Shown: positions 46,945-49,941 of the stretch, in pieces | Layout of the letters: each line of letters starts with the position of its first letter | Position numbering within the stretch: position 1 is the first letter of the stretch | Assembly (NCBI RefSeq): GCF_028712165.1 | Contig: NZ_JAQTQR010000002.1 | Location: forward strand, 1 to 64,000 | Direction of reading: 5' to 3' | DNA length: 64,000 bases | Source of the DNA: Sulfuricurvum sp. | Lineage (GTDB): Bacteria > Campylobacterota > Campylobacteria > Campylobacterales > Sulfurimonadaceae | Position numbers and translations under genes: made by a program | The notes under the pieces: generated by a model | What the model was told of the DNA's origin: nothing | The model's input: the letters and a program-made list of their open reading frames with translations, nothing else | Databases searched by the model: none

Positions 46945-47322
46945 TCACCATTTCAACTGCTGGATAAGGTGATCGTAAACCTGCCGGATTTTGTCGCCGT
47001 CGGGTTCCCCTTTATAGTCCATTTGTGCGCGTGCAATTTGGGTATTGTTCTCTTTGATTGTGATACGGATATATCCGTCAAAATCAGATCCTAATGATCT
47101 GCTTTGCGCATTGGTACAGTGTGCACTGTGAATGTATACTATCACCGATACACGGGCATTCGGATCATTTGTACTTTTCAGCGTACCGCTTAAATCTTCG
47201 ATGCGGAGTGCGGATGGAGGATGACCGACAAAATGCCGATCATTAATCTCTGTAAAAATCTCCCGTTCCAAACACCCGCTTAACGCGAGTGCACAGAAAA
47301 AGAAAAAGAGGTTTTTTCTCAT
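46945..47322 (-). CDS. Small lipoprotein
   Basis: A 125-residue protein with a lipoprotein signal (LALSGC lipobox near residue 17). The mature part is not recognised. It contains the positively charged end LIQQLKW. It is 3 bp from the next gene on the same strand. Confidence 0.7.
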   Translation of the reverse strand: MRKNLFFFFCALALSGCLEREIFTEINDRHFVGHPPSALRIEDLSGTLKSTNDPNARVSVIVYIHSAHCTNAQSRSLGSDFDGYIRITIKENNTQIARAQMDYKGEPDGDKIRQVYDHLIQQLKW

Positions 47323-47325
47323 ACG

Positions 47326-47751
47326 TTACGCATGTGAGTGTTGGCCGCAGCAATTGTGGCCATGGGAGTGGGAATGTCCGTGAGTTTCTCCGTGATGGTC
47401 ATGTTCCCCCAAAAGGGAATCAAAGTTGTTCGAAGTTACTTCTATGAGCTCATTGGCATAGAAAAGCTTTAGGGCATTGCTTATCGTTAATCGCTCTTCT
47501 CCTGCAAAATAGACTTTGATGCCATAACTTTTCAAGAGGGCGAACGGATTCAATCCCAAATGGGATGTGATCAATACATCAACGTTATTGGCAACGAGGG
47601 TACGGGCGACGTCACGTCCTCCGAGCTGGTCCATTTTGACAACATCGATCTGTGTTGTATCGGTTGCAAAAGCAAAAAATTTGGCGTTCCCGAAAAGGGG
47701 AGCGAGTGCAGCATCGAGGGACGATGTTTTAATCGGCATAGCGATAATCAT
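47326..47751 (-). CDS. NifX/NifB-C-type protein with a His-rich tail
   Basis: A 141-residue member of the dinitrogenase-cofactor-binding (MTH1175/NifX) fold, with MIIAMPIKTSSLDAALAPLFGNAKFF at the start and the LITSHLGLNPFALLKSYGI core. A C-terminal tail of about 20 residues is dense in His and Cys and probably binds metal. No nif genes are nearby. It is cotranscribed with a paralogue under apparent control of the DUF134 regulator. Confidence 0.82.
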   Translation of the reverse strand: MIIAMPIKTSSLDAALAPLFGNAKFFAFATDTTQIDVVKMDQLGGRDVARTLVANNVDVLITSHLGLNPFALLKSYGIKVYFAGEERLTISNALKLFYANELIEVTSNNFDSLLGEHDHHGETHGHSHSHGHNCCGQHSHA

Positions 47752-47760
47752 AATAAATCC

Positions 47761-48135
47761 TTAATGGTGTGAGCAGCTCATATCAGGCTGCATGAGGGTT
47801 AGCTGATTGGCTAAAAAAGCGTTCAGCGATTGTTCGACACTCACGGAGATATTGTCGTGATATACCGCTAACCCTTTTTGTGCAAATCCTTGCAACGGGG
47901 AACCGCCTATTCCTGATACGATCAGGGCATCGGCTCCGAGAATACAGATATTTTCGACGGCACCGCCGCATCCGCTGCTTTTGTGCCCTTCGTTTTTAAC
48001 GACAAGAACATCTACGGTTTTGCCTTCGGGATTCAGTTCAACAACGGTATAAAAGTTGGCTCTGCCGAAATGGGCATCCCGTTTTGAAAGAAGCCCTTGG
48101 TGTTCATTGGTAGGAAAGACTATTTTTCTATTCAT
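47761..48135 (-). CDS. NifX/NifB-C-type protein
   Basis: A 124-residue paralogue of the 47326 product: IVFPTNEHQG start, HFGRANFYTVVEL, then the Cys-containing loop KSSGCGGAVENI and DALIVSGIGGSPLQGF. The chain ends CSHH, a possible metal site. It is the first gene of the leftward operon, 35 bp from an ACATATGT operator. Confidence 0.82.
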   Translation of the reverse strand: MNRKIVFPTNEHQGLLSKRDAHFGRANFYTVVELNPEGKTVDVLVVKNEGHKSSGCGGAVENICILGADALIVSGIGGSPLQGFAQKGLAVYHDNISVSVEQSLNAFLANQLTLMQPDMSCSHH

Positions 48136-48170
48136 AGTGAAACTCCTTATGTAAAATATCTAGAAACAAT

Positions 48171-48305
48171 TTAACATATGTAAAATTAAAAGGATATTAA
48201 TGGTAGCTTATAAAGAGTATAAGTTCTATTGTATTGATGTTTATCCCCTATTTAAAGGCTTCAGAAACTGTTTGGGTTAAAATGACTATAATTAACATAT
48301 GTAAA
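48171..48305. promoter_or_regulatory. Two identical operators between the NifX-like operon and its regulator
   Basis: TTAACATATGTAAA occurs at 48171-48184 and again at 48292-48305, each centred on the palindrome ACATATGT. One copy is 35 bp from the 48135 start, the other 14 bp before the 48320 ATG. The DUF134 protein encoded on the right is the likely binder, controlling itself and the divergent operon. Confidence 0.65.
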
Positions 48306-48319
48306 CATTAGGAAATACG

Positions 48320-48946
48320 ATGAAGACCGGTAAAAAACGCAATATTACCTTTAAACCTACGTGCTTTTCATTCGGCCCTTTAACGCAAGCTCCAAAAGAG
48401 ATGATACAGTTACGAGATGATGAACTCGAAGCGCTTTATCTCGCCGATTTCAAAGCGCTCTATCATGAAGAGTGTGCACACTCATTAGGGGTTTCGCGTC
48501 CGACATTTGCCAAGCTTATCAAACAGGCCCGCAAAAAAATGGTGGAGATGATAATGTTCGGAAAAGGGATCGAGCTTATACGAGAACCTCATAGTTTTAC
48601 CCTTGTATTTCCCAGCGATGACCGTATCTCCGTCCACCCTTATTTTTTGATCGCAAAATACTTTGCATTTGCCAAAGTGGAAGATGGGGTTATCGGCTCA
48701 ATTACCTATAAAGAGAATCCCATTTATAAAGAGCTTTTCCAAACCAAAAAAGAGATTGTCAATGACGAGAGTGCCAAAGGATTGGCGGCAGGACGGATCA
48801 TTCCACCCCTTTTAGAAGACGCAAACATTTTAGTTGCGCGAACATTGGGCGATGGAATACGTCGCAATATAGAAGGGATGGGGATAAGCATTGCACTAAC
48901 CGCAACCAGCGATCTTGATGCGGTGGTTGCAGAGCTGATAGACTGA
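48320..48946 (+). CDS. DUF134 regulator with NifX-like domain
   Basis: A 208-residue protein. The DUF134 helix-turn-helix (about 1-85; RDDELEALYLADFKALYHEECAHSLGVSRPTFAKL) is followed by a NifX/MTH1175-type domain (about 90-208). The same fold is found in the two divergent genes, so the regulator may sense the same metal or cofactor. Identical palindromic sites flank both promoters. Confidence 0.85.
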   Translation: MKTGKKRNITFKPTCFSFGPLTQAPKEMIQLRDDELEALYLADFKALYHEECAHSLGVSRPTFAKLIKQARKKMVEMIMFGKGIELIREPHSFTLVFPSDDRISVHPYFLIAKYFAFAKVEDGVIGSITYKENPIYKELFQTKKEIVNDESAKGLAAGRIIPPLLEDANILVARTLGDGIRRNIEGMGISIALTATSDLDAVVAELID

Positions 48947-49470: not shown

Positions 49471-49941
49471 ATGGTGAGAATTGAAGTTCCGGGAATGGAA
49501 AGGTTAGAGATTGAGCATTTGGTATTGGATTATAACGGGACAATAGCGATTAACGGGATACTCATCGAGGGAGTTATGGAGCGATTGGGGAAACTTTCGG
49601 TCTTACTGGATATTCATGTTATAACAGCCGATACGTACGGCTCCGTTCACGAGCAATGTCATGGACATAATATTTCAGTCCATGTGATCGGAAAATATCA
49701 TCAAGATCGGGAAAAACTGACTTTTCTCGAATCACTCAAACCCGAGCACTGTGTCGCGATCGGAAACGGGAAAAATGATCTGCTTATCCTCTCACATGCG
49801 GCATTGGGATTTGCGGTGATTCAAGAAGAGGGGATAAGTACAAAAACACTTTTGGCTTCGGATGTTGTGTTTCAATCGATCAATGATGCCCTTGAAGCAC
49901 TGCTAAATCCTAACCGGCTGATAGCAACCCTTAGAAATTAA
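49471..49941 (+). CDS. HAD-family hydrolase, P-type-ATPase-like
   Basis: A 156-residue soluble HAD protein. LDYNGTIAING (about 19-29) is the first HAD motif with a Tyr in place of the second Asp-like position, TADTYGS (about 53) is the second motif, and AIGNGKNDLLIL (about 96) the last. The sequence resembles the P-domain of metal P-type ATPases and is found alone in several lineages. Substrate unknown. Confidence 0.8.
   Translation: MVRIEVPGMERLEIEHLVLDYNGTIAINGILIEGVMERLGKLSVLLDIHVITADTYGSVHEQCHGHNISVHVIGKYHQDREKLTFLESLKPEHCVAIGNGKNDLLILSHAALGFAVIQEEGISTKTLLASDVVFQSINDALEALLNPNRLIATLRN

Follow-up and report, generated by a model that had tools for sequence, protein, structure and literature searches.

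The IssA/SipA protein of Pyrococcus furiosus, which has the NifX fold (IPR003731), serves as a store of iron sulfide in the form of thioferrate, and sulfide induces it provided that there is enough iron; Fe and S are bound by its globular domain by itself, and a single Cys is present in the full-length protein (PMC5524996). In Desulfovibrio, the NifX-fold proteins of the orp/MrpORP system are encoded in divergent operons and one member carries a metal-sulfide cluster (PMC6345978, PMC3897727), the Mo-Cu sulfide cluster of ORP being held non-covalently (PMC6345978). NifX and NafY of nitrogenase are of the same fold. One-component repressors, in which an HTH and a ligand-binding domain lie in one chain, combine local autoregulation with operators that lie over the promoter.

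The locus described here comes from a sulfur-oxidising bacterium, Sulfuricurvum sp., and lies on contig NZ_JAQTQR010000002.1, of which 64,000 nt were analysed (the window), in a genome of 2,724,856 bases. A DUF134 regulator faces away from an operon with two NifX-fold proteins, NifX1 and NifX2. The likeness to orp/MrpORP lies in the NifX-fold proteins of divergent operons and in a Peptoclostridium gene row (YeiH, DUF134, NifX, two ATPases, MrpORP) that places a DUF134 gene with MrpORP; however, orp is sigma54- and IHF-dependent (PMC6345978, PMC3897727), the palindromes of the window adjoin sigma70-like elements, and visual inspection of the ORFs surrounding the locus showed neither MinD-type ATPases nor MrpORP. 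With IssA the shared features are the fold and, in the NifX proteins of split DUF134 pairs elsewhere, a cationic Gly-rich tail, whereas the NifX1 and NifX2 tails (CSHH and His-rich, respectively) are not of the cationic Gly/aromatic-rich kind, and the accessible part of PMC5524996 names no DUF134 regulator. The nitrogenase proteins share their fold with the C-terminal domain of the regulator, but NifX1 and NifX2 are not matched by the nifX model and the locus is unlinked to nif. The regulator has the chain layout and operator placement of the one-component repressors, and differs from them by its proposed NifX-fold sensor; we know of no characterised regulator with a sensor domain of this fold.

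DUF134, which occurs in bacteria and archaea, is annotated as of unknown function, and we found no functional paper on DUF134/UPF0251 in the open-access literature searched. In the text that could be searched, DUF134 as a whole word appears once with regard to archaeal G-quadruplexes and once for a Bacillus phage region, UPF0251 appears in a mutation table only (PMC5886521), and two further matches are longer names, DUF1349 (PMC10434189) and DUF1345 (PMC8346489). No open-access paper was found that joins a dinitrogenase cofactor protein, cytochrome bd and sulfide. A local autoregulatory repressor is of a known kind; the family-wide site and a NifX-fold sensor would be new as far as these searches show. 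With a conserved site, a repressor geometry and recurring partners, the family becomes one of testable regulators, with a site, targets and a signal.

The divergent locus and its twin palindromes

The regulator (208 aa; 48320..48946, plus strand) had been taken for a DUF134 protein in the first-pass annotation, an identity borne out by PF02001 (E 1.2e-12; 48.6 bits against a gathering score of 27), and a genome-wide search showed it to be the sole match to this family in its genome (50.3 bits). Its DUF134 HTH, the DNA-binding domain, covers residues 5-84 by Pfam (48332..48571, plus strand) and is followed at about residues 93-208 (48596..48943, plus strand) by a domain of the NifX fold, recognised by profile, Foldseek and VIA-align. 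On the minus strand lie NifX1 (124 aa; 47761..48135) and NifX2 (141 aa; 47326..47751), both above the PF02579 (Nitro_FeMo-Co) gathering score of 26.3 bits, at 51.1 and 44.8 bits. The solved structures nearest to NifX1 are 1t3v/1o13, with ORP 2wfb weaker, and the nearest to NifX2 is 1rdu. The His/Cys tails that had been read in these two structural proteins are indeed present, as NifX1 ends in MSCSHH and NifX2 in a His-rich stretch that includes a Cys pair. The third gene encodes a putative lipoprotein (46945..47322, minus strand) with a lipobox-like LSGC seen by eye and without a Pfam match; since its ORF begins 3 bases past the NifX2 stop, it was assigned to the same operon, NifX1-NifX2-lipoprotein. 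The same order is conserved at three other loci (L010, L012, L013), and at L011 NifX2 and the lipoprotein are retained and NifX1 is lost. A HAD-like hydrolase and a DUF6858 protein recur next to the regulon within the genus (window 49471-49941; L030 3477-3866).

The exact 14-mer TTAACATATGTAAA stands twice in the intergenic region, at 48171-48184 and 48292-48305, once ahead of each of the divergent gene starts (48135 leftwards for NifX1, 48320 rightwards for the regulator), just as first reported. The copy upstream of the NifX operon is the predicted operator O1; that upstream of the regulator, which holds the conserved core, is the predicted operator O2. A search of all 2,724,856 bases for further TTAACATATGTAAA sites returned the twin pair as the only exact copies, with one-mismatch copies absent genome-wide and all other near-copies differing by two; two-mismatch matches were not commoner than those of the reversed control. 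The pattern WACATATGTW occurs at 8 places in the genome, much as its reversed-pattern control does (9 per strand vs 8), and the twin pair are its only intergenic copies, the six others falling within mechanically called, uncurated ORFs. With every other WACATATGTW inside an ORF and the two-mismatch 14-mers at control level, a wider regulon in this genome was rejected, and the regulator and NifX operon transcripts are the whole recognisable regulon. The 8-base core ACATATGT has three copies in the window, a number that 10 of 100 shuffles also reach, so that it is weak evidence in the window alone, and position and conservation elsewhere are decisive against chance. A chance repeat was rejected on the conservation of the site at DUF134 genes in other genomes.

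The palindrome in relatives and in other phyla

Within the genus, the regulator is present in 8 of 41 genomes, its own included, and NifX1 in 10, the latter count including a fragment in G019 and a match in G015 that is both weak and distant. The proposed operators, when checked in these relatives, held up, as a palindrome precedes each divergent transcript at all seven intact regulator loci. Both palindromes are exact in the window, G026 and G012; one is exact and the other a variant in G040 (GCATATGT), G014 (TCATATGT), and G001 and G006 (ACATTTGT/ACAAATGT). In G019 the N-terminus of the regulator is cut, NifX1 is fragmentary and the site is lost, i.e., all three are damaged and thus decayed together. 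G009 has NifX1 with a site, near the end of the stretch examined; in G011 NifX1 is close to the contig start and no site was found in the stretch examined.

A profile built from 7 regulators matched 100 of 348 genomes of the order, in 38 of 86 genera. Its 124 rows, counted by hand, resolve into 113 places (all N-terminal profile matches outside the regulator's own locus), 10 C-terminal half-hits and the regulator itself; the 113 consist of set 1 (60 loci), set 2 (52) and L066, with L215 left out as a duplicate of L128. The core ACATATGT was found within about 350 bp upstream of the DUF134 gene at 97 of the 113, so that the predicted operator palindrome is conserved at the regulator's own promoter, although these places are not independent events because some genomes give two and the genomes share ancestry. 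Set 1 was selected manually, with the E-value as the main guide, at a stage when none of its upstream DNA had been examined; it has the core in the upstream 350 bp at 50 of 60 DUF134 loci, compared with 7 of the 412 control genes in those stretches (5 of 410 once two DUF134-NifX fusions, L116 and L117, are removed), and 72 of the 86 copies in its 729,506 bases fall in the regions upstream of regulators. In set 2 the core is upstream at 46 of 52 loci versus 0.7 expected from shuffles, two of the misses being cut by contig ends, and L066 is one further locus with it. The exact core is missing at 16 of the 113 places, of which two are cut by contig ends and some have CAAATG, CATTTG or ACATATGC variants. 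A separate count, 57 of 70 upstream regions, includes certain same-genus loci more than once and stands outside these totals.

Two or three copies of ACATATGT are found at 50 of the 113 places, spaced mostly 22-23 or 29-35 bp apart, and the aligned sites read TTGAACATATGTCAA or near it. The longer pattern GAACATATGTCAA has 15 sites in 12 genomes, 14 at a DUF134 promoter and the fifteenth within a PBP1A ORF, with 2 for the reversed-pattern control in the same genomes, two of which have no site at all; as genomes and pattern were chosen after the sites had been seen, only the specificity (14/15) is informative.

Outside the order, RCATATGY was found within 150 bp upstream in 13 of 17 DUF134 genes of other phyla, with 0.41 expected; these loci are plasmid matches chosen for taxonomic spread plus L039 (Smithella), and several of the Enterobacterales among them are closely related. 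The plasmid loci represent Gammaproteobacteria, Bacillota, Spirochaetota and Bacteroidota, and were drawn from 188 DUF134 matches among 72,556 plasmid records, enterobacterial plasmids included. Sites read GGCATATGCC in Citrobacter, TTGACATATGTCAA plus a second copy in Selenomonas, and TTATTGACATATGTCAATAA in Roseburia; variant cores are CAAATG in Acetoanaerobium and Treponema and CATTTG in Parabacteroides, and the Salinivibrio DUF134 locus has no such palindrome. The gene start given for L231 is incorrect; its site is nonetheless within the 150 bp. The regulatory half of the first-pass annotation is strongly supported by these results, in that the site accompanies the DUF134 gene throughout the order and in other phyla.

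The recognition helix may also vary with the flanks of the site. Regulators with SRQT (Gln after 'SR') mostly have G-flanked sites (GCATATGC, GCAAATGC), and those with Pro, Thr or Ala after 'SR' mostly have A-flanked ones; this does not hold for L228, with one G-flanked and one A-flanked site, nor for L095 (mixed), L229 (SRPT with GCATTTGC) and L217 (SRQT and no site). A specificity code of this sort, seen post hoc, is only a lead, because it is confounded by ancestry.

The NifX-fold domain, its neighbours and a candidate signal

That all three proteins have a NifX-type fold, as the first-pass annotation stated, was confirmed by PF02579 for NifX1 and NifX2, and for the regulator by profile and structure, not by Pfam, its C-terminal domain being below the PF02579 cut-off as a single sequence (17.9 and 20.3 vs 26.3 bits). 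The fold was assigned to this domain by profile (1o13, E 1.4e-9) and by Foldseek, and in structural alignment (VIA-align) of the regulator model (mean pLDDT 90.7) it gave Z scores of 13.8 to 1o13, 13.2 to NafY 1p90, 12.4 to NifX 9ian_F and 12.0 to ORP 2wfb. The HTH gave a middling Z of about 7 to sigma region 4, and for both domains matches within 1 Z unit are ties.

The HTH and NifX parts are associated in several ways. In 9 genomes, all from one family, each part has a gene of its own and the two genes are side by side, and in Gammaproteobacteria the DUF134 gene overlaps the NifX gene or is near it; L116 (5651-6319) and L117 (6134-6832) have a DUF134 HTH fused in frame to a NifX2-type domain, followed by NifX1. 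That the two occur fused, adjacent or overlapping indicates that the modules work together. In one pairwise comparison the NifX domain of the regulator was 30% identical (E 2e-15) to the NifX of a split pair, a protein that at 8 of 8 loci examined has a Gly/Arg-rich, IssA-like tail with a net charge of +6 to +9. The in-frame genes of L116 and L117 are themselves a natural fusion of regulator and target type, and at L106-L113 (one family) a DUF134 gene is followed by a separate gene for a Gly/Arg-tailed NifX, these NifX proteins being candidate bacterial iron-sulfide storage proteins encoded next to their regulator.

A conserved set of Cys/His ligands in the regulator was sought over 56 sequences and rejected; no Cys or His of its NifX domain is conserved across these relatives. 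In the regulator as a whole, C15 is shared by 20 and a Cys at the position of P98 by 29. Since IssA binds Fe and S with one Cys in the whole protein and ORP holds its cluster non-covalently, this does not argue against metal-sulfide sensing; a metal-sulfide species is a plausible signal, if one still short of probable. Tentatively, and with less assurance, DUF134 proteins may be a cross-phylum family of CATATG-palindrome repressors in which a NifX-fold domain, either attached to the protein or encoded next to it, detects a soluble metal-sulfide (iron sulfide or thiomolybdate), not a metal ion or sulfide alone, and which control NifX-fold storage proteins and, elsewhere, sulfide-tolerant respiration and anion export. 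The induction of IssA-like proteins by sulfide, which depends on iron, could also be the work of a DUF134 regulator. Should metal-sulfide indeed be what the NifX-fold domain senses, this kind of sensor would be one that is not known from any characterised regulator, and IssA-like, ORP-like and cytochrome bd genes would be joined in one sulfide response.

The genes found near the 60 set-1 loci were NifX (35), CydA (15), DUF6858 (9), SLAC1 (8) and, more rarely, MinD-ferredoxin ATPases (3) and SQR (3), numbers that are undercounts as partners were identified by BLAST against a small reference set. With 14 of the 60 loci having none of the listed partners and SQR present at 3, the link to sulfur is recurrent, not uniform. 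NifX1 is directly ahead of cydAB or cydA in G001 and G006. At L030 (7284-10339), L071, L096, L099 and others, NifX lies beside cytochrome bd oxidase genes and divergent from DUF134, an arrangement that suggests co-control of the bd oxidase, and a DUF4492 small protein is encoded at several NifX-bd loci. Plasmid neighbours of DUF134 include SLAC1, TauE/SafE, a rhodanese-bearing flavoprotein and a Sulf_transp-like protein (below its cut-off), as well as Dps, PaaI thioesterase and arsenic genes. On plasmids of Enterobacterales and Aeromonadales (L216, L219, L220, L222, L223, L228, L230), the DUF134 gene overlaps a NifX gene, the pair being often followed by SLAC1, PaaI thioesterase or Dps and mostly with twin GCATATGC sites. 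The window itself has three SQR-like flavoproteins within about 7 kb, all below curated cut-offs.

These neighbours also bear on a different signal, i.e., that the regulator responds to oxygen/redox state or to a simple metal ion (Ni, Zn, Cu, Co), with NifX1 and NifX2 providing metal storage or delivery for the hydrogenases of the window. The His-rich tail of NifX2, the several hydrogenase genes and the His-rich HypB-like protein in the window are in keeping with a metal ion, and the cytochrome bd partners seen elsewhere would fit oxygen too. Yet the regulator shows no conserved Cys/His site, and the order-wide partners, within the small reference set, are NifX, bd oxidase, SLAC1 and DUF6858, not hydrogenases. 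We consider a signal of this kind rather unlikely.

Placement of the predicted operators and a probable mode of regulation

At several loci of the order, the site is centred in the 17-18 bp spacer between TTGACA-like and TATAAT-like hexamers; at others, one site lies over the -35 and a second after the -10. In the window, O1 (48171..48184) overlaps TTTACA, a candidate -35 in a weak promoter-like match on the minus strand, and O2 (48292..48305) abuts TATAAT (48287..48292, plus strand), the candidate -10 of the regulator promoter, for which there is no good -35 and which the promoter scan did not report; that scan gave 5 promoter-like sites in the window versus 1.6 expected (sd 1.6), a weak excess. 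Sites in the spacer, over the -35 or beside the -10 have the geometry of a repressor that blocks polymerase. From the sequence evidence, the palindromes are very probably the operators of the DUF134 protein, and autorepression is likely. That the regulator is a one-component autoregulatory repressor acting at both palindromes is the more probable reading of the locus as a whole, and since the site tracks DUF134, stands once before each divergent transcript and overlaps promoter elements, a compact autoregulatory loop explains it best.

The regulator might instead activate the NifX operon from O1, in a class II-like position over the -35, and repress only itself at O2. The overlap of O1 with the -35-like hexamer of a weak promoter would allow this, and the two sites 22-35 bp apart in many relatives could serve different ends. 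In many relatives, however, the site is in the -35/-10 spacer or straight after the -10, positions from which a bound protein is expected to obstruct polymerase, although most of the promoters concerned are those of the regulator gene itself. Activation at O1 seems improbable.

Under repression at both sites, the DUF134 HTH, probably as a dimer, would bind the palindrome ACATATGT (family core RCATATGY); at O2, next to the regulator's -10, it would repress its own gene, and at O1, across the -35 region of the divergent promoter, it would repress NifX1-NifX2-lipoprotein. The C-terminal NifX-fold domain would be the sensor, most likely of iron-sulfide or another thiometallate species. A build-up of sulfide and metal would form the thiometallate, its binding to the sensor would release the operators, and the derepressed NifX1 and NifX2 may then scavenge, store or hand on metal-sulfide species.

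As the association of DUF134 with the site is positional only, the palindrome could in principle belong to another regulator with which DUF134 is merely co-regulated. We regard this as very unlikely: the site follows DUF134 across phyla; ACATATGT is present without the listed partners at L077, L105, L107, L108, L110, L126 and L128; WACATATGTW is absent ahead of the other NifX genes of this genome, which are located on contigs 34, 43 and 76 (the site at 12648 of contig 76 is within an ORF); and 14 of the 15 longer sites in the 12 genomes are at DUF134 promoters.

The first-pass annotation described the regulon as having no nitrogenase, which is correct for the window but wrong for the genome. 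The NCBIfam cut-offs for nifD, nifK, nifN and nifX are exceeded there and a nifE-like gene narrowly misses its own (490.9 of 505.1), none of these genes being linked to the DUF134-NifX regulon. The nif genes of a relative are given in PMC4674564, the accessible part of which has nothing on a DUF134-NifX locus. FeMo-co precursors are carried by NifX-fold proteins, and nifDKN and nifX are present in this genome; even so, it is scarcely credible that the regulon belongs to nitrogenase cofactor assembly, and a nitrogenase regulon was rejected, because NifX1 and NifX2 do not match the nifX equivalog model (TIGR02663), no operator is present on the nif contigs, the locus is unlinked to nif, and the distributions differ, nifD being over its cut-off in 27 of 41 same-genus genomes versus 8 for the regulator, with G014 having the regulator but nothing that matches nifD, and the regulator being absent from most of the genomes that have nifD, i.e., the regulon is independent of nif. 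A cluster elsewhere in the genome (L028; contig 34, 9000-18500), which has no operator, contains a NifX that falls slightly short of the nifX cut-off, together with two ferredoxin-like proteins, a divergent NifX-fold protein and a TPR protein bearing a NifU-like end, and these are probably nif accessory genes.
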